Shown here: piece after piece, positions 2,432 to 22,733 of the stretch
Layout of the letters: each line of letters begins with the position of its first letter
How positions within the stretch are numbered: the stretch's first letter is position 1
NCBI GenBank assembly: GCA_021108405.1
Contig: JAIOQW010000269.1
Location: 1-34,350, forward strand
Direction: 5' to 3'
DNA length: 34,350 nt
Origin: Methanosarcinales archaeon
GTDB taxonomy: Archaea; Halobacteriota; Methanosarcinia; Methanosarcinales; Methanocomedenaceae
The notes under the pieces: generated by a model
Databases searched by the model: none
The model's input: the letters and a program-made list of their open reading frames with translations, nothing else
Told to the model about the DNA's origin: nothing
Translations under genes and position numbers: made by a program

Positions 2432-3112
2432 TTATTGACCCCGTGCGTGCCTGATAAACAACCTGATCTTTTCTTCATCCTTCTTCTGGTCAGTCTCAGC
2501 ACCAGATGCCGTATCCACACCATAGGGGGCTACAGTCCTTACTGCCTCTGCCACATTACCAGGATGCAGGCCACCTGCCAGAATAACAGGCAAAGGTGAG
2601 TGTGCAGTTATACCTTTACTTTTTGTCCAGTCGTGAGTAACCCCTGTTCCTCCACTTCTGCCGCCGACGTTTGAATCCAGTAGAATGGCGTCAACAACCT
2701 GGCTAATTTTAGAAATGTAGCGCAGAGTACTGCTGACATCAGTATCTTCATTGATATGAATTGTCTTGATGATCCTGGTATGTGTGCTATCTTTTATTGA
2801 TCTTAAGTCTTCAAGAGACATGGGACTGTGTACCTGCACAGCGTCCGGTCTCACAAAGGTTATCAATTCTATAGCATTGTTAACATCTTCGGGCATACAT
2901 ACCATCACAGTATTTATTAACGGCGGGGTTGAAGCCGCCAGTTCCCTGGCAGTCTCCCTGTCTATCCTGCGGTGAGTGCTTACCGGTACTTCAGTTATAA
3001 AACCAACACAATCAGCACCATGGCGGACTGCTAATCGAACTGAATCCATATCTTTCATTCCGCATATCTTGACCCTGGGAACAAAATCAATCGTATTTTG
3101 TGGATCTGACAT
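2432..3112 (-). CDS. trpF: Phosphoribosylanthranilate isomerase
   Basis: This 226-residue TIM-barrel enzyme carries out the Amadori rearrangement of phosphoribosylanthranilate to CdRP in tryptophan synthesis. The catalytic cysteine is in VKICGM near the N-terminus. The phosphate-binding loops GGTGVTHDW, ILAGGLHPGNV and GVDTASGAE are all present, and the aspartate of LLDSNVGG is in the expected place. The usual aromatic/SPR segment after beta-1 is replaced by GFITEVPVSTHRRI, as in other methanogen-type TrpF proteins. It lies 14 bases after trpD and one base before trpE, which fits a single transcript. Confidence 0.94.
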   Translation of the reverse strand: MSDPQNTIDFVPRVKICGMKDMDSVRLAVRHGADCVGFITEVPVSTHRRIDRETARELAASTPPLINTVMVCMPEDVNNAIELITFVRPDAVQVHSPMSLEDLRSIKDSTHTRIIKTIHINEDTDVSSTLRYISKISQVVDAILLDSNVGGRSGGTGVTHDWTKSKGITAHSPLPVILAGGLHPGNVAEAVRTVAPYGVDTASGAETDQKKDEEKIRLFIRHARGQ

Positions 3113-3126
3113 GATAACTCACAAAA

Positions 3127-4155
3127 TCATAAATATGTGTTCAATTGTTCGAAAGAACCTGCTATTTCCACAAATGCCTTAAGTTTTTCCAGTGCATTAC
3201 CACTATCAATAGTCTGCTGTGCTAATTCCATACCATCTTTCAGATCAGATGCTTTTTCCCCAACTACAAGCGCGGCTGCGCAGTTCATAATAACTATATC
3301 ACGTTTAGCATTTTTTTGGCCTTTGAGCAATTTCACGATATCAGCAGCATTTTCCTGTGGGGATCCTCCTTTAATATCTGATATTGATGCCCTGGTAATT
3401 CCTAATTCTTCAGGTGTAATTGAGTAGGTTTCTATTGTACCCCTATTGAGTTCTGCTACAGTAGTTGTATCCAGGTTGGATATCTCATCCAGACCGCTGC
3501 CGTGTACCACAAAAGCTCTTGATGTACCTAATATGTGCAAAACTTCTGCCATGGTTATGCAGAGCGACTCATCAAACACACCTATAACCTGGGATTTTGC
3601 ATTTGCAGGATTGGTCAGGGGGCCGAGGATATTAAAAACAGTACGTACTCCCAGTTCTTTCCTGGGCCCGGCTACTCTCTTCATGGAAGGATGAAATACC
3701 GGGGCCAGCATAAAACCAATACCAACCTTCTCAATCGATTCAGATACTTTTTCAGGCGGCAGATCGATGGTCACACCAAGTTCTTTTAATACATCCGCAC
3801 TACCTGATCTGGAAGTAATGGAATAATTGCCATGCTTTGCCACTGGTACACCAGCTGCCGAAGCTATAATTGCAGATGCAGTACTGACATTAATAGTATG
3901 TGAACCATCTCCACCGGTACCGCAAGTATCTACCAGTATACCACTGACCCTGGGTTCAATGGTATTTGCCGCGCTTTTCATCCCACTGGCTAATCCGGCG
4001 ATCTCCTGGTTTGTTTCGCCTTTCATCTTAAGAGCAATGAGGAAAGCTCCGATCTGGGCATCTGTGGCATCACTGAATATACTGCTGATGGCTGATTGTG
4101 CCTCATTGTAAGTAAGATCTTCATTATTGATTATTTTTTGAATGAATTCCTGCAT
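3127..4155 (-). CDS. trpD: Anthranilate phosphoribosyltransferase
   Basis: The enzyme (342 aa) transfers phosphoribose from PRPP to anthranilate. The PRPP/Mg site GTGGDGSHTINVST is near residue 80, followed by AKHGNYSITSRSGSADVLKELG, the anthranilate-site segment MLAPVFHPSMK, and VRTVFNILGPLTNPA, all diagnostic of the family. The frame allows an ATG four codons earlier (4167), but a GGTGAT ribosome-binding site sits five bases before the ATG at 4155, so that start is preferred. It is the first gene of the minus-strand trpDFEG operon; trpC, trpB and trpA are not in the window. Transcription must start in the 4156-4485 region shared with the divergent gene. Confidence 0.95.
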   Translation of the reverse strand: MQEFIQKIINNEDLTYNEAQSAISSIFSDATDAQIGAFLIALKMKGETNQEIAGLASGMKSAANTIEPRVSGILVDTCGTGGDGSHTINVSTASAIIASAAGVPVAKHGNYSITSRSGSADVLKELGVTIDLPPEKVSESIEKVGIGFMLAPVFHPSMKRVAGPRKELGVRTVFNILGPLTNPANAKSQVIGVFDESLCITMAEVLHILGTSRAFVVHGSGLDEISNLDTTTVAELNRGTIETYSITPEELGITRASISDIKGGSPQENAADIVKLLKGQKNAKRDIVIMNCAAALVVGEKASDLKDGMELAQQTIDSGNALEKLKAFVEIAGSFEQLNTYL

Positions 4156-6791: not shown

Positions 6792-6834
6792 CTGTTGAAA
6801 GTGGGTGAATGCATTTGTTAAAGGGGATAGATCA

Positions 6835-8607
6835 ATGGCAAAACAAAAAAATCTCCGTACTCCTATCGTATGTGTCATGGGTCATGTTGATCATGGCAAG
6901 ACCAGTCTACTTGATAAGATACGGGGCACTGCTATTACAGAAGGTGAAGCAGGAGCGATCACCCAGCATATAGGTGCAACAGAAGTCCCTATAAAGATAA
7001 TAAACCGTGTTTGCGGTAAAGCATTTAAAGGCAAGTTTAAAGTACCGGGATTGCTTTTTATTGATACGCCCGGACACCATGCTTTTACTACATTGCGTAC
7101 CAGGGGCGGAGCCCTGGCTGATCTGGCAGTAGTGATCATAGATATAAATGAAGGATTCCAGCCTCAGACCATTGAAGCAATTAGTATACTTAAACGCTAT
7201 AAAACCCCTTTTGTTGTAGCTGCTAATAAGATTGACAGGATCCATGGCTGGAATCCACAGGCTGGATCATCATTTGTAGATTCTTATAATAGACAGCCCG
7301 AACATATCAGATCACACCTGGATGAGAAGTTCTATGAGATCGTGGGCAAGTTATATGATCATGGTTTTAGTTCTGACCGGTACGATAGGATCAGGGATTT
7401 TCAAAATAATATTGCGGTTATACCAATTAGTGCTGTGACCGGAGAAGGACTATCTGATCTGCTTATTATCCTGCTGGGTCTGGCTCAACGGTTCCTGGAA
7501 ACAGACCTGGAGTATCATGCAACAGGCCCGGGTGTAGGTGTAGTGCTTGAATTAAAAGAAGAACGTGGTCTGGGCACAACCCTGGATGTGATCCTGTACG
7601 ACGGAGAGATCTCAGTAGGAGATATGATAGCCGTAGGTACACTTGGCGATCCTGTAGTCACCAAGACCAGGGCATTATTAAAACCAAGACCTTTATCCGA
7701 GATAAGGTCTGAAGAGAAATTCAAGCATATTAAACACGTAACTGCGGCTTCCGGTCTGAAGATATCCGCTCCGGGACTGGACAGGGCAATATCAGGTGCA
7801 CCTATTAAGGTTGTCACTAAAGATACTGCTGATGAGATATCACAGGAGATCAGATCAGAGATCGAACAGACCAGGATTGAAACAGATAATACTGGAATAC
7901 TTCTCAGGGCAGATACTATAGGCAGCCTTGAAGCTCTGGTCAATGAACTAAAAGCTCAGGAGATCCCAATACGAAAAGCAGATGTGGGAAACATATCCAA
8001 AAGGGATATAGTTGAAGCACAAGCTCAGGAGGACCCTCTTTATTCGGTGATACTCGGGTTTAATGTGGATATACTCCCTGATGCCCTGGAAGAACTCATG
8101 GATTGTGATGTCAAATTATTTATCAGTGAAGTGATCTATCAGCTGGTAGATGATTATGCGGATCATATAGAAGAGATCACATTATTAAGTGAGAAACAGA
8201 AGAGTGAAGCTGTCATCAGGCCGGGACGGTTCAGATTACTGCCAAATCATACATTCCGCCAGAATAAACCCGCGGTAGTGGGTGTGGAAGTGGAAGGCGG
8301 GATCATAAGGACCAGACTTAATGTAATGAAGGACAATGGTATTTCCGTGGGATTGATCAAAGGTATACAGGACAATGGAGAGAATGTAAGTGAAGCAAGG
8401 TTGGGCTCACAGGTTGCTGTATCTATTGATGGTCCGGTAGTAGGCCGGCATATCAAGGAAGGAGAACTGCTATATATCGATATACCGGAAAAACATGCGA
8501 AGATCGTGGAACAGGAATTGATCGGATCCCTGAGTCCGGATGAGATGAAAACACTTGAGATGTTCCTTAAGATCAAACGAAAAGGAAATCCTTTTTGGGG
8601 AAAATAA
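6835..8607 (+). CDS. infB: Translation initiation factor aIF5B
   Basis: This GTPase (590 aa) promotes subunit joining during initiation. The G-domain motifs are GHVDHGKT (G1), DTPGHHAF (G3), ANKIDRI (G4, with the archaeal long insert after it) and ISAVTGEG (G5). Domain II, the alpha/beta domain III and the domain IV barrel follow, ending in the typical helix SPDEMKTLEMFLKIKRKGNPFWG. The length is that of archaeal aIF5B, shorter than bacterial IF2, and no intein interrupts it. The ATG at 6835 is chosen because GGGGAT stands just before it and the protein then begins MAKQKNLRTPIVCVMGH; a start at 6805 would add ten residues without support. Confidence 0.96.
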   Translation: MAKQKNLRTPIVCVMGHVDHGKTSLLDKIRGTAITEGEAGAITQHIGATEVPIKIINRVCGKAFKGKFKVPGLLFIDTPGHHAFTTLRTRGGALADLAVVIIDINEGFQPQTIEAISILKRYKTPFVVAANKIDRIHGWNPQAGSSFVDSYNRQPEHIRSHLDEKFYEIVGKLYDHGFSSDRYDRIRDFQNNIAVIPISAVTGEGLSDLLIILLGLAQRFLETDLEYHATGPGVGVVLELKEERGLGTTLDVILYDGEISVGDMIAVGTLGDPVVTKTRALLKPRPLSEIRSEEKFKHIKHVTAASGLKISAPGLDRAISGAPIKVVTKDTADEISQEIRSEIEQTRIETDNTGILLRADTIGSLEALVNELKAQEIPIRKADVGNISKRDIVEAQAQEDPLYSVILGFNVDILPDALEELMDCDVKLFISEVIYQLVDDYADHIEEITLLSEKQKSEAVIRPGRFRLLPNHTFRQNKPAVVGVEVEGGIIRTRLNVMKDNGISVGLIKGIQDNGENVSEARLGSQVAVSIDGPVVGRHIKEGELLYIDIPEKHAKIVEQELIGSLSPDEMKTLEMFLKIKRKGNPFWGK

Positions 8608-8615
8608 AAATCAGT

Positions 8616-8652
8616 AAATGCTCCCTCCGGTCGCATTTACTTGACCGACATT
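8616..8652. repeat. Structured interspersed repeat, copy B (partial)
   Basis: A short copy of the repeat seen at 4186: stem AAATGC/GCATTT around TCCCTCCGGTC, then TTACTTGACCGACATT. Both arms differ from copy A (AAAATCC/GGATTTT) in a way that keeps pairing, which suggests that structure matters. It stands eight bases after the infB stop codon and may double as its terminator. Confidence 0.6.
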
Positions 8653-8673
8653 AAGGAATTTTAATCCGTGTTA

Positions 8674-8723
8674 CCTGCACGCCCTTCAGGCGTAGCAGGC
8701 ACTCAACTCCGTAGGAGGTGAGT
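8674..8723 (+). other. Two adjacent hairpins downstream of infB
   Basis: The first hairpin (8674-8699) pairs CCTGC and CGCC with GGCG and GCAGG around CTTCA. The second (8701-8723) pairs ACTCA and CTCC with GGAG and TGAGT around a GTA-containing loop. Flanking words TTAATCCGTGTTA and GTATCTGTGTTAAT resemble part of the inverted repeat at 12508-12571. No gene is visible in 8608-9144; it consists of these hairpins, repeat copies B and C, a poly-A run (8858-8871) and the upstream block of the first prenyltransferase. Confidence 0.5.
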
Positions 8724-8872
8724 GTATCTGTGTTAATCTATATCTGAAAAAAAGCTTTCGGACTCTATCATGTTTACTTTCGATTCTATAGAAAGTGTAA
8801 ACCTGGATAAGAATCATAAGCAATGTACACTTCCTTGTAGTATATCACGTTATAATAAAAAAAAAAAAATAA

Positions 8873-8930
8873 CAAAATCCTCGCTTGCGCTCGGATTTTC
8901 TTGAGTACATCAAGTTAAACTTGATATATT
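8873..8930. repeat. Structured interspersed repeat, copy C
   Basis: The copy begins CAAAATCC-TCGCTTGCGCTC-GGATTTT and continues TCTTGAGTACATCAAGTTAAACTTGATATATT, which has its own small stem ATCAAGTT/AACTTGAT. The first hairpin is almost identical to that of copy D at 10115. It ends right where the homologous upstream block of the prenyltransferase copies begins, so the repeat marks the left edge of the duplicated unit. Confidence 0.65.
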
Positions 8931-8931
8931 A

Positions 8932-9144
8932 GGACAAGACAAAACTAACCCCTACTCCTCATCCGCTCGAATTTATGATCTATTTCAGTGTGGTTACCAC
9001 CGCACTGTAGAATATATAGTAGGCTATAATAATATATATTTCAAACCAACATCATGATTTCATTGAGATTGCTACATTGTAATGAAATTGTAATATTACA
9101 ATCCGGTTGAAATATTACTTTATAAATAATGTATATATACTATT
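8932..9144 (+). repeat. Duplicated upstream block of the prenyltransferase unit, copy 1
   Basis: From GGACAAGACAAAACTAACCC on, this block is closely matched by 10237-10446. Both copies contain a hairpin, CAGTGTGGT-TACC-ACCGCACTG here (8986-9007), and the run ATAATATATATTTCAAA. The match continues into the start of the prenyltransferase coding sequence in both places, so the duplicated unit includes promoter and gene. Confidence 0.75.
9087..9127 (+). promoter_or_regulatory. Palindromic operator candidate and TATA box
   Basis: A perfect 16-base palindrome, ATTGTAATATTACAAT (9087-9102), stands just upstream of a TATA box, CTTTATAAATA (9117-9127). The GTG start at 9145 is only about 25 bases beyond the TATA centre, which predicts a leaderless transcript. 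Half-sites of the same kind (GAAATATTAC, ATTACAAT) recur at 9109-9118 and upstream of the later copies. The neighbouring FilR1-type regulators are the obvious candidates to bind here; that link is inference. Confidence 0.5.
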
Positions 9145-10002
9145 GTGAGTGGGGGACTTGTAACACTAAAATTGCTCATAACTTCAGTTATGATTGCAAT
9201 TTCAGGGGCGTTTCGGATCTATATAGCATATCTGTTAGTAGGATATGATGTTGTAATTAGCAATATTGCTGCAGTTTTTTTAATTATATATGCTATTTAT
9301 GCATTTGATAGGATCAAAGGAGGAGAAGAAGATAATATAAACCGAAAAGATTTGACAGGTGCAAGGAAGGATATTGCGTATATTGTTTGTGCATTTTCAT
9401 TAATCTGTGGTGTATTGATATTATTTTTACATGACCTTATCCTGGTTGTGATCATTCCTTTTTTTGTAGGTTACTTCTACAGCAAGAAGACCGTAATAGG
9501 AAAATATTCTTTTAAGCTAAAAGGAGGTATGGGGGCAAAGAACCTGATAGTAGCATTGACATGGGGCATATTTATTACGGGAGTTGTCATGAAAGGTCAC
9601 AGTGACCTGATTGCTGCTATATCAATTTTTTCTTTTCTTTTTATTAAGTCCTTTATAAATACTGTAATGGAAGATTTTTCTGATGTTACCGGAGATAAAA
9701 CAGTAGGATTGATGACATTACCTATCTGTTTAGGGGAGAAGAAGACAAGGTGTTTATTAATGGGAATCCATATGTTCGAGCACGTAATAATAGCGATCAT
9801 CATGATAAAGGGGATGTTAGAATTTGAAATAATCATTTTATTATCATGTTTTTTTTCAGGTGTGATCTACATTTTCTTTTTTACCGGAACATCGATCAAT
9901 ATTAATAGTTCTGGAATAAAGAATGTATCATACCAATTGTTCTATAGGTGGGAATTCTATGTAGCGGTTGGATTGCAAACGTTATCTAAAATATTAGTAT
10001 GA
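9145..10002 (+). CDS. UbiA-superfamily membrane prenyltransferase homologue, copy 1
   Basis: The protein (285 aa) is almost wholly hydrophobic with about eight to nine membrane helices. Two aspartate-rich loops mark the UbiA fold: FDRIKGGEED (D55 to D63), a divergent form of the first NDxxDxxxD motif, and DFSDVTGDKTVGLMTLP (D177, D180, D184), a good second motif. Such enzymes attach isoprenoid chains to aromatic or lipid acceptors; the substrate cannot be told. The start is GTG at 9145. The gene is one of several copies in this island; copy 2 at 10762 is a diverged paralogue, and 12768-12955 is an internally deleted version nearly identical to this one. It converges on the leftover 3' end of a regulator gene (10005). 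Confidence 0.8.
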   Translation: MSGGLVTLKLLITSVMIAISGAFRIYIAYLLVGYDVVISNIAAVFLIIYAIYAFDRIKGGEEDNINRKDLTGARKDIAYIVCAFSLICGVLILFLHDLILVVIIPFFVGYFYSKKTVIGKYSFKLKGGMGAKNLIVALTWGIFITGVVMKGHSDLIAAISIFSFLFIKSFINTVMEDFSDVTGDKTVGLMTLPICLGEKKTRCLLMGIHMFEHVIIAIIMIKGMLEFEIIILLSCFFSGVIYIFFFTGTSININSSGIKNVSYQLFYRWEFYVAVGLQTLSKILV

Positions 10003-10004
10003 AA

Positions 10005-10053
10005 TTATATTTTATTAGAATTATTCAGTAAATAATTGAAATTTTTATTCCCC
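10005..10053 (-). pseudogene. Vestigial 3' end of a FilR1-type regulator
   Basis: Read on the minus strand these bases give GNKNFNYLLNNSNKI followed by a stop, matching the last residues (FFNYLLNNSNKI) of the intact regulator at 12956-13732. The rest of that gene is gone. Its position, two bases after the prenyltransferase stop and in convergent orientation, is the same as in the intact pair, so copy 1 once had its own regulator. Confidence 0.7.
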
Positions 10054-10114
10054 TATCTTTAAGATACTGCAAATGGATATACAAAATCTAATAAATTATT
10101 TAATATAAAAATGA

Positions 10115-10220
10115 AAAAAATCCTCGCTAGCGCTCGGATTTTCTTGACTGAGGCTCTTAAAAGAGCCGAAGATTAGAAAATGTGAACAGAATGAGCATTT
10201 TCGATATATCAAGTTATACT
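10115..10220. repeat. Structured interspersed repeat, copy D
   Basis: The copy runs from a stem AAAATCC/GGATTTT with loop TCGCTAGCGCTC through a second stem GGCTCTT/AAGAGCC to the GAAAATG/CATTTTC hairpin shared with copy A, and ends TCGATATATCAAGTTATACT. As with copy C, the duplicated prenyltransferase upstream block starts a few bases further on. Confidence 0.7.
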
Positions 10221-10236
10221 AAAAAAAAGAAAAAAT

Positions 10237-10446
10237 GGACAAGACAAAACTAACCCCTACTCCTCGTCCGCTCGAATTTATGATTTATTTCAGTGTGGTT
10301 ATCACCACACTGTAATATATAGTACACCATAATAATATATATTTCAAACTAACACCGTGATTTCAATGAGACAATAGCATTATAATCCGATTGAAACATT
10401 ACAATCATAGTGAAATATTACCTGAAATTGATATATACGTATTATT
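10237..10446 (+). repeat. Duplicated upstream block of the prenyltransferase unit, copy 2
   Basis: This is the second copy of the block at 8932. Its hairpin is CAGTGTGGT-TATC-ACCACACTG (10291-10312), with a perfect nine-base-pair stem; relative to copy 1 the stem is kept. The A/T-rich part has changed more: the perfect palindrome of copy 1 is reduced to separate half-sites (GAAACATTACAAT, GAAATATTAC). Confidence 0.7.
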
Positions 10447-10482
10447 GTGAGTGGGGGGCTTGCAAGACTAAAATTACTCACA
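10447..10482 (+). pseudogene. 5' stub of a prenyltransferase gene
   Basis: GTGAGTGGGGGGCTTGCAAG and the following bases encode the first dozen residues (start, S-G-G-L, then R-L-K-L-L) of the UbiA-like protein, matching 9145 onward. The homology then stops and is replaced by the transposase fragment on the opposite strand. The promoter block in front of it is still present, so this is a truncated copy, not a chance match. Confidence 0.65.
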
Positions 10483-10493
10483 TGCGTGATTGG

Positions 10494-10690
10494 TTAAGTT
10501 CTCCATTCATCCATTAATCTCTTCCAATTTACATTCGGATCAACCTTACCTTTCAGCCTGCTGACAAAGAATCCACCATTTTCATAAATACGAGCGAAGG
10601 TATTGTGTTTATAAAATCCAAGATCAATTAATAGCATACGATTTTTTAACCATGGTTCTATCCGAAGTGTCTTAACTTTACTGCTAATAT
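10494..10690 (-). pseudogene. Fragment of an IS4-type DDE transposase
   Basis: On the minus strand the frame gives SSKVKTLRIEPWLKNRMLLI, then a DLGFYKHNTFARIYENGGFF segment and VSRLKGKVDPNVNWKRL, ending in a stop at 10494-10496. The LLIDLGFY and GGFFVSRLK parts are characteristic of IS4-like archaeal transposases around the second catalytic aspartate. Only about 65 residues remain, with no inverted repeats visible. The fragment separates the 5' stub from the upstream region of prenyltransferase copy 2 and probably took part in the rearrangement. Confidence 0.75.
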
Positions 10691-10761
10691 TGAAATTACA
10701 ATGGCTTTATAATATTACACCCCAATAAAAATATTAATAAGAAACTATATAATCAGTTAGA

Positions 10762-11616
10762 GTGAGTAGGGGAATTGCGACTTTAAGGCTACTTGTAGCT
10801 TCGATTTTAAATGGATCATATGGTGCTTTTATAATTTATATAGCTTATCTTATGGTTGGTTATAATATCAGGATATCTAATATTATTGCCGGGTTTCTTA
10901 TTATTTATGCTATCTATACATTTGATAGGGCAAAGGGAGGAGAAGAAGACGATATAAACCGAAAGGAACTTATTAAATCAAGAAAAGACATTGCTTATAT
11001 AATTTGTATACTTTCATCCTTAATAGGGGTATTGATCTTTTTCTTAAATGATCTGCTTTTTGTTGTAATAATTCCCTTAATTGCAGGTTACTTTTACAGT
11101 ATGAAGATAAATATTGGGAGTTTTACTATCAGGCTTAAAGGAGGCTGTGGTATGAAGAACCTGATTGTAGCTCTTGCATGGGGGATATTTATTACAGGAA
11201 TCGTTGTGAGAGTTAATACTGAATTTGTTACTATCATAGCGATTTTCTTATTTGTTTTTGTAAAAAATTTTATAACTACTGTAATGTATGATTTTCGTGA
11301 TATCAAAGGAGATAAAGTGGCTGGATTATTGACATTACCGATCTATTTTGGAGAACATATAACCAGGATCTTACTAATGAGTCTCCATCTCCTTGTGCAT
11401 TCACTGGTTGCCTTTGTCATGATAGCCGGTATATTAGAATTTAAATTTGTAATAATACTTAGCTGTTTTATTTCAGGTATTATCTATATTTTCTTTTTTG
11501 CAAAACCAATTGATTTAATAAATTCCAGAATTAAAAAAATACTATTCTATTTATCTTATAAAGGGGAACTCTATATGGCTTTAGGATTGCAAATAGTATA
11601 CTCAAACTTTATGTGA
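10762..11616 (+). CDS. UbiA-superfamily membrane prenyltransferase homologue, copy 2
   Basis: The 284-residue protein is a paralogue of copy 1, clearly related along its whole length but strongly diverged. It keeps both aspartate loops: FDRAKGGEEDD (D55, D63) and DFRDIKGDKVAGLLTLP. Eight to nine membrane helices are expected. The start is GTG, with a TATA-like CTATATAA only about 15 bases upstream and the half-site words GAAATTACAAT and TAATATTAC before it. Its last 15 bases overlap the end of the convergent regulator gene (11602-12411), so this is the best preserved copy of the convergent pair. Retained motifs suggest a working enzyme; the substrate is unknown. Confidence 0.8.
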   Translation: MSRGIATLRLLVASILNGSYGAFIIYIAYLMVGYNIRISNIIAGFLIIYAIYTFDRAKGGEEDDINRKELIKSRKDIAYIICILSSLIGVLIFFLNDLLFVVIIPLIAGYFYSMKINIGSFTIRLKGGCGMKNLIVALAWGIFITGIVVRVNTEFVTIIAIFLFVFVKNFITTVMYDFRDIKGDKVAGLLTLPIYFGEHITRILLMSLHLLVHSLVAFVMIAGILEFKFVIILSCFISGIIYIFFFAKPIDLINSRIKKILFYLSYKGELYMALGLQIVYSNFM

Positions 11617-12411
11617 ATTATGTAATAGATATTTTAACATATCCGTTCCCCAGGATATGGCAGAAGGATCCAGACTAACCCAATCTCTTTGAAAATCATA
11701 ACCACCATCCTTAAAAAATAATGTAATTGAAAAATAGCAATTTGTAACTATCATACTGAATTTAAGTTCATTGTTATAAATAAAAATTTTCACATTATTA
11801 AGGTTTAAGAATTCGTTTATTGAATTCGTGTATTCAGTTTCGGCTCTTTTATAGACATCTTGTGTAAGAATCAATGAAACTTCCTTTCCACTTAATGCTA
11901 ATTCCAAAAACATATCTGGCCATGATGGTCTAAATACAGGTGTCACTCCTTTTATCCAGTTTGATTGTGAAAGTTCCTGCAGGAATAGATTGTGAGGTTC
12001 GTATAATTCTTCCAGATTCAATTCATTCATCATACAATCCCCCAGTTCATGAAATCGTTTTAAAAGATGTTCTGGAATTATAGATATATCATGAGTATCT
12101 ATAAAATTCTCATTTTTTTCGATTATATCAATTATTTTTATCAGTGGATATAAATGTTCGTAAAGTAATCTACCTTTATCAGTTAATAAATATAACTTTC
12201 CTTCTTGATTAACAATATTCCTCTGCTCCAGCATCCTGATCTGAGGGATTATTCCCGGAGAGGTTACACTTAGTGATTGCTTGATTTCGGTCAGGGTCCT
12301 GGGTCCATTATGTAATAGAATAATAAGGTTCTTTCGTTTTTCAGAAAACAAAAGCAGATCCAATAATTTAGTTTTCATGTCAGATTCCAAATTCCCCACA
12401 AAAAGTGACAT
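11602..12411 (-). CDS. FilR1/DUF1724-type winged-helix transcriptional regulator, copy 1
   Basis: The protein (269 aa) has an N-terminal winged helix-turn-helix (about residues 13-85: KRKNLIILLHNGPRTLTEIK, then SVTSPGIIPQIRMLEQRNIV as recognition helix and wing) and a C-terminal alpha/beta domain of the methanogen FilR1 middle-domain family, ending in the usual ISWGTDMLKYLL. Such proteins are common in methanogens and are thought to sense small ligands or redox state. An ATG at 12378 would align better with the start of the paralogue at 13732; neither start has a clear ribosome-binding site. It converges on and overlaps prenyltransferase copy 2. Control of the prenyltransferase genes is likely from linkage but not shown. 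Confidence 0.82.
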   Translation of the reverse strand: MSLFVGNLESDMKTKLLDLLLFSEKRKNLIILLHNGPRTLTEIKQSLSVTSPGIIPQIRMLEQRNIVNQEGKLYLLTDKGRLLYEHLYPLIKIIDIIEKNENFIDTHDISIIPEHLLKRFHELGDCMMNELNLEELYEPHNLFLQELSQSNWIKGVTPVFRPSWPDMFLELALSGKEVSLILTQDVYKRAETEYTNSINEFLNLNNVKIFIYNNELKFSMIVTNCYFSITLFFKDGGYDFQRDWVSLDPSAISWGTDMLKYLLHNSHKV

Positions 12412-12767
12412 TTCGTAAAGGTTTATTATTACTTATCCTATTCTTCTTATTTATTTTTTTCTTTTCCGGTGACTGTTATATTATTTGTTAGTAAACTCAA
12501 ATTAACTGCGAATGAACACAGATAAACGCGGATACGCTATCTGAATGTCTGCGTTCATTTGCGTTTATCTGGTGCGACAAGAAGTTATATCATGAATTGC
12601 AGTAATGTCACCTGTTCCATTTAGGGTGGCCTTATTGTGGCATACAACTACAGTGATGTGGTTGTGTGAAGCCCACAAGACAATGTGGAAACCTCCAAAA
12701 ATCTAATTTGGACAATCTGCTAAGGTAAAAATACTGTGAAAAGTGTAATGCGAACCGTCGTAAGAGT
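12412..12767. other. Gene-free stretch with an inverted repeat
   Basis: No gene is supported here. Between 12508 and 12571 two overlapping inverted repeats occur: CAGATAAACGC (12519) with GCGTTTATCTG (12561), and CGAATGAAC with GTTCATTTG. Downstream, around 12680-12760, a plus-strand frame gives a cysteine-containing stretch (CGNLQKSNLDNL, then KYCEKCNANRRKS after a stop) that recalls the zinc ribbon of a transposase N-terminus, but it is too short and broken to assign. Confidence 0.45.
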
Positions 12768-12955
12768 CATAACTTCAGCTATGATTGCAATTTCAGGGGC
12801 GTTTCGGATCTATATAGCATATCTGTTAGTAGGATATGATGTTGTAATAGTAATAGTAGTTCCGGAATAAAGAATAAATCATACCAATTGTTCTATAGGT
12901 TGGAATTCTATGTAGCAGTTAGACTGCAAACGTTATCTAAAATATTAATATGAAA
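12768..12955 (+). pseudogene. Internally deleted prenyltransferase copy
   Basis: The first part (12768-12848) matches 9177-9257 almost base for base, and the second part (about 12852-12955) matches 9904-10004. About 640 bases of the middle, including both aspartate loops, are missing, and the start codon region is gone too. Downstream the match to copy 1 goes on into the regulator 3' end. The near identity to copy 1 means that the duplication is recent compared with the divergence of copy 2. Confidence 0.85.
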
Positions 12956-13732
12956 TTAGATTTTATTAGAATTATTCAGTAAATAATTAAAAAATTCAGT
13001 TCCCCAGGATATAGCAGAAGGTTCTGTACCAATCAAGTTTCTTTGGGAGTCATAACTTCCATCCTTAAAAAAAGGCGTAAATGAGAAATAGTGATCAGTA
13101 AATATCATAGTTAATTTTAATTTGTCGTTATATATATATATGTGAGTATTATTAAGGTCGAGAAATTCTGCTATTAAATTGTTGAATTTAGCTTCTGTTC
13201 TTTGGTAGACCTCAGGTGTAAGGATCAATATGATTTCTTTTTCTTGCTTAGCCAGCTGGAGAAAAAAATCAGGATATGATGGATTAAAAATAGGTGTAAC
13301 TGCTTTGATCCATTTGGATGATGACAAAATCTCAATAAATAAACGATGAGGTTCATAGATATTTTGGAGATCTACTTGATTCAATCCACATCCTTTTAAT
13401 TTATATAATTGTTTTAATAGAGCTTTTGGAATCATTAGTAGATCATGGGCATTAAAGAATTTCTGATTTTTTTCTACCAAGTTAAGTGTATCTACGAGTG
13501 GACATATGTAATAATCTGTAAGTATTTGACCTATATCAGTCAAAAAATACTCTTTACCTTTCTGAATAACTATATTTTTTTCCTCAAGAATCCTTATCTG
13601 TGGTATTATCGCAGGAGCTTTCACGTCAAGTGAATCCTTAATTTCAGTAAGGTTCTTAGCCCCATCTCTTAGAAATAATACAAGGTTTTTTCGTTTTTCA
13701 GAAAAAAAAAAGGCATCTAATAATTTAGTCAA
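12956..13732 (-). CDS. FilR1/DUF1724-type winged-helix transcriptional regulator, copy 2
   Basis: This 258-residue paralogue of 11602-12411 has the same layout: a winged helix over residues 5-75 (LTEIKDSLDVKAPAIIPQIR region) and the FilR1-type domain ending in ISWGTEFFNYLL. The start is probably TTG at 13732, preceded nine bases upstream by GGGGG; no in-frame ATG lies before it, and the paralogue has its start at the matching place. A TATA-like ATTATAAAA stands at about 13780-13788. Its 3' end is shared with the remnants near 10005 and adjoins the deleted prenyltransferase. It may therefore now act on the surviving copies elsewhere in the island. Confidence 0.82.
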   Translation of the reverse strand: MTKLLDAFFFSEKRKNLVLFLRDGAKNLTEIKDSLDVKAPAIIPQIRILEEKNIVIQKGKEYFLTDIGQILTDYYICPLVDTLNLVEKNQKFFNAHDLLMIPKALLKQLYKLKGCGLNQVDLQNIYEPHRLFIEILSSSKWIKAVTPIFNPSYPDFFLQLAKQEKEIILILTPEVYQRTEAKFNNLIAEFLDLNNTHIYIYNDKLKLTMIFTDHYFSFTPFFKDGSYDSQRNLIGTEPSAISWGTEFFNYLLNNSNKI

Positions 13733-13804: not shown

Positions 13805-14716
13805 CTATTGATATATATTGTTTTTGTTATTGTGCTTGTATATATGTTCAATTAGTTCTTTTTCATCCGCACCAATGAAAATATTATGAAGTGTTTGTCT
13901 GGTAGATGATCTATAGAATTCCTGTGTCACTTTATTAAAAGAATCAACTGCCGCTTCGAATAGTGTCCTATCTTTTGTTCTTACACCCATTCTTGCCTGG
14001 AATTCAGCTATAGACTGATAAATCGAAGATGAGTCAAACTCATTATCAAGACGCTGTGCACACTCACTGGCCTTTATTAAACATTCTTTGGTAGCATCCA
14101 CATGCCCTATCTCAAGAAATAGTCTTGATAGATCAACATAAGCAGATACTTTATAGATCATATGACTAATAGCATTAGAAGAATCAATAATATCAAGAGC
14201 CTTATTTGCTGCTGTCAGGGAAGCAGATGTATCATTCATGCTATGCAAAGTCCTGGCAATTTCCCTCCAGGCCATAGAGCGGTATGTATCATATTCAATA
14301 GTATCAGCAATCTTTTTTGATTCCTCTATTATAGCAGGATCATCCATTGTCATACCTACCCGGACAAAAGTACTGGCTATAATCTCAAGTGCATGACTTG
14401 TATCAAGGCCATCAAGAGTATTGTCTGATAGTTCAAGCGACCTCCTGACCAGATTGATATTAGCAGTATTTTGTGCGATTTTTGCAGTACTTTTAATAAT
14501 ATCCACAAAAGCCCTGGAGCGATTATTCATATCAATGATATGATCAGTGAACCGCACAGCTTCTTCCAGATAGCTTATATCATTTAAAGCCACAGCCTTT
14601 TGTGCTAACGCAACGACACCTGCTCTATATTTCTTAGACCGGTCATTTTCGTTCAGTATGGATTGGGCTTTTTTTTCTAATTCTATAACAAAATCATCTA
14701 CTTCGTTATCAGACAT
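13805..14716 (-). CDS. Alpha-helical repeat (TPR-like) protein
   Basis: The 303-residue soluble protein is made of repeated helical pairs of about 35-45 residues, with recurring patterns such as AVRFTDHIIDMNNRSRAFVDI, SLELSDNTLDGLDTSHALEI, and AANKALDIIDSSNAISHMIY. This is the style of tetratricopeptide-like scaffolds that bind other proteins. No catalytic motif, signal peptide or membrane helix is seen. The ATG at 14716 is chosen over a GTG one codon earlier because AGGAGGT lies five bases before it. It follows the radical SAM gene by 34 bases on the same strand and may be cotranscribed. No specific partner can be named. Confidence 0.75.
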   Translation of the reverse strand: MSDNEVDDFVIELEKKAQSILNENDRSKKYRAGVVALAQKAVALNDISYLEEAVRFTDHIIDMNNRSRAFVDIIKSTAKIAQNTANINLVRRSLELSDNTLDGLDTSHALEIIASTFVRVGMTMDDPAIIEESKKIADTIEYDTYRSMAWREIARTLHSMNDTSASLTAANKALDIIDSSNAISHMIYKVSAYVDLSRLFLEIGHVDATKECLIKASECAQRLDNEFDSSSIYQSIAEFQARMGVRTKDRTLFEAAVDSFNKVTQEFYRSSTRQTLHNIFIGADEKELIEHIYKHNNKNNIYQ

Positions 14717-14750
14717 CACTACCTCCTGTATGGACTGATCAGTAATGTTT

Positions 14751-22650: not shown

Positions 22651-22668
22651 GCGGGATAAAACTCCCGC
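22651..22668 (+). promoter_or_regulatory. Hairpin in the L15e leader
   Basis: GCGGGA-TAAAAC-TCCCGC forms a perfect six-base-pair stem about 65 bases before the L15e start. GC-rich structure stands out in an otherwise AT-rich leader, and more pairing (AGGCCTTTAACAGGCTGAACC) may follow. It could be a leader element for autoregulation of the ribosomal gene or part of a terminator for upstream genes; the lack of a T run speaks against the latter. Confidence 0.35.
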
Positions 22669-22733
22669 AGGGATGTGGCCTTTAACAGGCTGAACCGTGA
22701 AACCTGGATTATAATACAGAGGAGATTCGAAAC

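Follow-up and report, generated by a model that had tools for sequence, protein, structure and literature searches.

A decayed array of a tail-to-tail UbiA prenyltransferase and FilR1-type regulator pair in a Methanosarcinales archaeon, and the linkage of the two genes beyond it

We analysed a window of 34,350 nucleotides (nt) from a methane-cycling Methanosarcinales archaeon (assembly GCA_021108405.1, contig JAIOQW010000269.1), whose genome comprises 3.67 Mb in 363 contigs. Between infB (6805-8607) and a TPR-like gene with weak TPR matches only (13805-14719), positions 8932-13732 hold an array derived from a single gene pair, a UbiA-family prenyltransferase (U, the enzyme) and a convergent FilR1-type regulator (R), of which two enzymes, Ua and Ub, and two regulators, Rb and Ra, are intact. 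The pairing of U with R is far older and wider than this array. The features of the array are the following.

8932-9144, plus strand: upstream region of Ua, with a conserved 85-nt block and a TATA-like stretch (about 9116-9125), from the repeat search
8987-9008: imperfect palindrome within the Ua upstream region
9057-9113, plus strand: three operator-like units spaced by 19 nt (9057, 9076 and 9095), from the repeat search and a pattern scan
9145-10002, plus strand: Ua, UbiA-family prenyltransferase, intact, the ancestral copy (Pfam UbiA 42.5 bits, cut-off 34.2)
10005-10053, minus strand: remnant of the regulator tail of copy 1, by homology to the last copy
10237-10480, plus strand: orphan promoter and UbiA 5' stub, with operator-like units at 10360, 10379 and 10398, from the repeat search
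10481-10683, minus strand: remnant of an IS4-type transposase, internally deleted and with many stops, by similarity to contig C101
10695-10731, plus strand: operator-like units at 10695 and 10713, upstream of Ub (11.8 and 9.5 bits)
10762-11616, plus strand: Ub, UbiA-family prenyltransferase, intact, a diverged copy
11602-12411, minus strand: Rb, FilR1-domain regulator, intact (FilR1_middle 113.1 bits, cut-off 27)
12572-12766, plus strand: 5' part of a group II intron (Rfam RF02012, domains 1-4, at 12609-12751, 49.5 bits, gathering threshold 34)
12767-12955, plus strand: gutted copy of Ua, a 5' fragment (to 12848) fused to a 3' fragment (from 12851)
12956-13732, minus strand: Ra, FilR1-domain regulator, intact (FilR1_middle 113.8 bits, cut-off 27)

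An initial annotation of the window had described a first copy with the tail of its regulator, a stub, a second copy and a gutted copy followed by a regulator, and each of these pieces was recovered where it had been placed. The stub matches 8932-9178 with 83% identity over 247 nt (E 1.9e-68) and copy 2 matches copy 1 with 67% nucleotide identity over 900 nt (E 1.1e-77), so that these homologies cannot be attributed to chance. The inner pair, in which the open reading frames of Ub and Rb converge and overlap by 15 nt at their 3' ends, aligns in the same order with the outer pieces, at 67-69% nucleotide identity, and Ub shares 57% of its amino acids with Ua. Copy 1 matches the enzyme end and regulator end of the last copy over 154 nt at 89%, up to 10053. 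The gutted copy, which has neither a promoter nor a start codon, retains ~82 nt of the 5' part (99% identical to Ua) and ~105 nt of the enzyme's 3' part, with a 3' match to Ua of 89% over 154 nt. No further copies of these genes were found elsewhere in the 3.67-Mb genome.

Remnants of two mobile elements, which the initial annotation did not include, lie at the breakpoints of the array. The stub ends at 10480 and abuts the start of the transposase remnant at 10481, which is 91% and 89% identical to two pieces of an element on contig C101, lacks ~0.6 kb relative to it, and owes the label IS4-type to our reading of the intact 437-amino-acid open reading frame of that element rather than to a database match. 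At the other breakpoint, a strong hairpin found by fold prediction (~12490-12571) adjoins the 5' part of the group II intron. Related introns occur on contigs C31, C102, C63 and C79 of the same genome, and in the C102 copy a reverse-transcriptase-like coding sequence, as judged by eye, follows; the reverse transcriptase and the 3' domains are not present at the window copy. Homology to the C102 intron ends at ~12767, where UbiA sequence starts, indicating that the intron landed in the gap and that a deletion then joined it to the interior of the enzyme. Decay of the array copies came after the mobile-element insertions: the entry of an insertion sequence (IS) and a group II intron, and deletions after it, would have disrupted the remaining copies, with an operator stub surviving as an orphan. 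The orphan promoter at 10237-10480 carries operator-like units with no gene behind them, and could titrate the regulator.

Strain variants of one pair, strung together in a draft genome, might produce a similar picture, and both the 363 contigs and the 99% identity to Ua of the 82-nt piece at 12767 would suit such an assembly error. However, the DNA of the inner pair differs by about one third and the 3' piece by 11%, the junctions fall on the IS and intron pieces, and the genes lie on no other contig; we regard this explanation as highly improbable.

The single congener genome compared, the incomplete genome of the ANME-2 cluster archaeon HR1 (contig MZXQ01000208.1), carries one pair in the same place as the window, in the order infB, UbiA, convergent regulator and TPR-like gene. 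This is the opposite of pieces lying at unrelated places in relatives, an outcome that the initial annotation had associated with an artefact made of dispersed copies. The syntenic HR1 pair and the lack of other copies in the window's own genome led us to reject a dispersed-copy or artefact account as the main one, and they support the local, decaying array of one convergent pair proposed in that annotation. The HR1 enzyme is 82% identical to Ua in amino acids and its regulator 80% identical to Ra, and thus Ua and Ra together represent the ancestral pair, separated today by 3 kb. In the trees of both proteins the inner gene is sister to a group formed by the outer gene and the HR1 gene (support 98 for U and 100 for R), which argues that the two inner genes arose together, by duplication of the pair, before the split from HR1; HR1 has either lost the inner pair, or its incomplete assembly misses it.

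The inner pair could also have arrived from an unsampled relative on mobile DNA and recombined into the resident pair. Within the window's family the pair is seen only in this genus, plus a distant form in one other genome, and mobile-element remnants flank the inner pair, both of which are in keeping with transfer; yet both trees make the inner pair sister to the resident pair, not to that of another genus, and we consider such an origin unlikely.

Nonsynonymous and synonymous divergence (dN/dS, NG86) amounted to 0.091/0.404 between Ua and its HR1 counterpart, 0.096/0.249 between Ra and its counterpart and 0.026/0.302 for infB of the two genomes, and between the copies, where values are near saturation, to 0.311/1.234 for Ua and Ub and 0.317/1.145 for Ra and Rb. 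By this measure both enzymes and both regulators look constrained. The end branches of Ua (0.088, compared to 0.11 for its HR1 orthologue) and Ra (0.092, compared to 0.15) are shorter than those of the HR1 orthologues, so Ua and Ra were not accelerated by their separation. The gutted copy is younger than the inner pair. Its two pieces differ in age, the 5' one standing closer to Ua (99%) than the 3' one (89%), which could be explained by gene conversion or by a second round of copying. The initial annotation is thus to be corrected in that the copies are of different ages. That the two versions were kept by selection for product variety, as had been suggested, is possible.

With respect to the enzyme, Ua and Ub score 255.0 and 257.4 bits against NCBIfam NF010117 (PRK13591, 'prenyltransferase'; cut-off 238), a family defined with neither a gene neighbour nor an assigned product. 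The AlphaFold model of Ub (predicted local distance difference test score, pLDDT, 91) shows the all-helical UbiA fold, its best PDB matches being UbiA enzymes. Compared with the archaeal UbiA structures, namely digeranylgeranylglyceryl phosphate synthase (6m31, 7bpu), AfUbiA (4tq3-6) and ApUbiA (4od4/5), the U model reaches TM-scores of ~0.54-0.66 and has the second aspartate motif in common with them, whereas identity is just 14-17% and the first motif of U is altered. In place of NDxxDxxxD, which we take to be the first aspartate motif of UbiA enzymes, U has D55-R56-x5-E62-D63-x2-N66, invariant in 40 sequences; in the second, presumably of the form DxxDxxGD, residues D177, D180, G183 and D184 are likewise invariant in the 40. 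Because none of these altered residues varies, U probably retains activity, its metal or diphosphate site having changed. Identification of the window enzymes with PRK12882 (geranylgeranylglycerol-phosphate geranylgeranyltransferase) was rejected, a separate gene of the same genome scoring above the cut-off of that family (contig C2, 31421-32281).

Most of the Methanosarcinaceae genomes searched carry relatives of the window's enzymes, as do Methanoperedens and some Methanomicrobiales. No additional conserved neighbour pointing to the enzyme's product was found, nor was a paper naming PRK13591 in the open literature searched. Several host groups of this enzyme use differing membrane electron carriers, and the U type occurs also in Methanomicrobiales, which to our knowledge do without methanophenazine. 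A study of M. barkeri, in its available text, ties UbiA genes in general to methanophenazine (PMC6315138), a possible lead to the substrate of U.

In both Ra and Rb an N-terminal winged helix is followed by a FilR1_middle domain (PF08350), after which the proteins stop: no receiver domain was matched at E 0.01, and no Pfam TrmB match was reported in the domain search. The model of Rb (pLDDT 92) consists of a winged helix and a phospholipase-D-fold domain, and resembles TrmBL2 and the sugar-binding domain of TrmB (Z 13.3, root-mean-square deviation 2.5 Å, 127 residues). TrmB and TrmBL2 (2f5t, 3qph, 5box) thus have the winged helix and phospholipase-D-fold effector domain of the predicted R fold, but share 12-16% identity with R, and a sugar ligand for R is not implied. 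FilR1 of Methanosaeta harundinacea, as described in the available text of PMC3991700, has FilR1_middle after a winged helix like Ra and Rb, but carries in addition a C-terminal receiver and has a partner kinase. Some Methanosarcinaceae genomes encode at least 13 FilR1-type regulators.

Beyond the window, of the 77 loci examined for this UbiA type (type A), 76 have a FilR1-type gene directly downstream of the enzyme, in convergent orientation. These loci were picked by the enzyme alone, in a scan with an alignment of this type which had itself been built from paired genes. At the 77th locus (L102) the contig stops 198 nt past the enzyme match. The 77 loci come from Methanosarcinaceae, Methanoperedenaceae, Methanomicrobiales, HR1, one Methanonatronarchaeales bin and one 'Parabacteroides' bin, and at least two orders retain the tail-to-tail pair. 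The contig labelled Parabacteroides (L089) has a Methanosarcina-like pair and, by its place in the tree, is most likely a mislabelled bin. A second listing, covering 84 matches that are part of all type A matches, gave a convergent R for 83, the miss (G073) having a shortened R beside U (L024, L061). At three further loci (L132, L133 and L134) the frame of the enzyme is broken and a regulator match is still adjacent; enzyme decay beside a kept regulator is therefore not unique to the window.

At the 76 loci, the 3' ends of U and R overlap in 34, lie 0-10 nt apart in 19, 11-60 nt apart in 6 and more than 60 nt apart in 17. In Methanosarcina and relatives, three loci (L067, L076 and L094) have a convergent gap widened to ~345-750 nt with the pairing kept. 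With ends overlapping or at most 10 nt apart in 53 of 76 loci, the mRNAs of the two genes would be mutually antisense, damping both, and the arrangement might be kept for that reason. A precedent is the mscL-arfA pair of Enterobacteriaceae, a conserved tail-to-tail pair with overlapping 3' ends like those of U and R, for which, unlike U-R with its predicted regulator, the available text of the source describes control by antisense RNA and no transcription factor (PMC10070815). However, Methanosarcina pairs are kept despite gaps of ~100-750 nt, and a sister UbiA type keeps its linkage with both genes on one strand. Overlap is therefore not what holds the pair together, and we judge antisense control to be an unlikely reason for the arrangement.

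In that sister type (type B), which is ~30% identical, 43 of 51 loci have a FilR1-type gene next to the enzyme and on its strand, the loci being in part the best 30 matches of one search and not a random sample; R precedes U in 38 of the 43 and follows it in 5. One locus (L174) was excluded from this count, being a type A gene on an ending contig. Among the eight type B loci without R, two end near U (L184, L194), one is a fragment (L189), one is a short contig (L011), and four (L173, L200, L202 and L203) have no R within the available stretch. The short contig, 4.8 kb from HR1 (G016:C218), carries two UbiA genes (872-1603 and 3082-3813) with identical match scores, neither of which has a FilR1-type neighbour; they could stem from a recent duplication or from a repeat in the assembly. 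By comparison, the control enzyme PRK12882 has a FilR1-type regulator within ~1.5 kb in 0 of 30 loci, these being the best matches of the search.

Distances among U proteins and among R proteins correlate with r = 0.946 over 73 gene pairs (71 loci and the two window pairs; permutation maximum 0.22), and the nearest neighbour is identical in U and R for 48 of the 73. Left out of the trees were L102, with no R, L061 and L110, with a short R, and L132-L134, with a broken U. The trees of U and R each separate type A from type B, suggesting that the tie between the two genes probably predates the two UbiA types. Mere inertia, by which U and R would be neighbours with no functional tie, has in its favour that in Methanosarcinaceae the surroundings of the pair are conserved as well. 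Outside this family, however, the neighbours vary and the pair stays, three gene orders all keep the adjacency, the trees are congruent, and the other UbiA enzyme has no such regulator beside it, so that we deem inertia very unlikely. The conservation of the two genes side by side suggests, instead, that the regulator controls the enzyme.

A candidate site for such control lies upstream of U. A 19-nt palindrome, approximately ATTWCAAN5TTGWAAT, occurs in U upstream regions of the window, of many Methanoperedens and of Methanomicrobiales, often repeated, with spacings of 17-20 nt in 48 of 53 cases. In a leave-one-clade-out test, not fully blind since its seed was picked by eye beforehand, 25 of 35 U promoters scored above the 95% level of dinucleotide shuffles (8/8, 8/8, 3/3, 4/13 and 2/3 by clade), compared to 5 of 34 R promoters and, depending on the clade, 0-5 of 30 control promoters. 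Upstream of Ua, the operator-like repeats stand ahead of the TATA-like stretch at ~9116-9125. The unit at 9095-9113 (13.8 bits) is the sole exact ATTWCAAN5TTGWAAT in the 3.67-Mb genome, and those at 9057 and 9076 are weaker; with at most one mismatch there are 19 places genome-wide, three of them in the array (the exact one and two of the 18 with one mismatch), and 10 for the reversed pattern. The palindrome repeats upstream of U are, judging by these patterns, likely to be an operator.

Over 85 nt the upstream block of Ua shares 93% identity with the stub, and it is conserved in HR1. The palindrome that is imperfect at 8987-9008 has a perfect counterpart in the stub and a weak one in HR1. A query with 8600-9200 gave 62 matches in the window's own genome, the array itself included, and those to its 8932-9178 portion are confined to the array. 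Dispersed intergenic repeats lie at 8660-8840, and dozens of sites across the genome match parts of 8600-8940.

Considering the module, its anatomy, the operator, the sensing and the duplication as one explanation, we find it probable that the locus is a multiplied and partly destroyed set of an old two-gene module, consisting of a PRK13591 enzyme and a dedicated one-component regulator. R would bind the palindromes, spaced by 18-19 nt, that immediately precede the TATA box of U. Activation of U is the better guess, by analogy with FilR1 of Methanosaeta, since FilR1, according to the available text, increased the expression of several of its targets in reporter assays (PMC3991700). R itself is probably not controlled by the repeats, as its promoters mostly lack them. 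Its TrmB-like, phospholipase-D-fold domain would sense a small molecule, for which the simplest candidates are the product of U and its substrates, and the duplicated pair would keep a second, diverged enzyme together with its own regulator.

Several observations weigh against such a dedicated module. R paralogues without U exist and are nested among the convergent-type R, and within Methanosarcinaceae the linkage amounts to a single inherited gene context, with a purH-like gene on the far side of the pair in 34 loci in what looks like shared descent. With respect to the operator, the motif seed came from some of the same promoters that were then scored. Methanosarcinaceae U promoters exceed the threshold in 6 of 42 cases, about the shuffled rate, the palindrome is missing from 9 of 13 promoters in the third (mixed) Methanoperedens set, and in type B it is found upstream of R in 0 of 41 cases and upstream of U in 1 of 43. 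The U promoter of HR1 scores 6.2, below the threshold, and a similar 19-nt arrangement is visible in it despite this low score. Furthermore, no 16-nt motif common to the U and R promoters of a locus was found over 71 loci (mean best score 12.69, compared to 12.48 in base-order shuffles). An AT-rich TAATATT is present in 48 of 77 U upstream regions, the stub included, compared to 12.8 in shuffles, and in 19 of 76 R upstream regions, compared to 12.3; it may be the Methanosarcinaceae counterpart of the palindrome or a part of the promoter.

Elsewhere in the window, an eL15-Euryarchaeota ribosomal protein leader lies at 22652-22701 (RF03144, 46.2 bits, gathering threshold 33.7).

Nothing relevant to a description of the U-R pair was found in the limited open literature searched. 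The Msr regulators of Methanosarcina acetivorans presumably carry the same domain as R. According to the available text of PMC11619418, they are encoded beside the genes on which they act, although these targets are methyltransferases, unlike the prenyltransferase U. More tentatively than for the locus itself, we propose a phylum-wide module of Halobacteriota, in which a TrmB-like sensor may have become tied to one UbiA enzyme before that family split and may read its lipid-like or quinone-like product, with the genes of one branch convergent rather than codirectional, several lineages having an operator spaced by 18-19 nt, and the ANME-2 genome of the window showing the module multiplying as a unit and an orphan operator remaining.

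The tie between enzyme and regulator is the more valuable result; the array is ordinary gene duplication and decay, useful in showing that the pair is copied as a unit. Conserved tail-to-tail pairs easily escape neighbourhood methods based on operons. A near-constant regulator neighbour, a predicted operator and a predicted sensor together give a direct way in to PRK13591: once the regulator's ligand is found, the product of the enzyme may follow.

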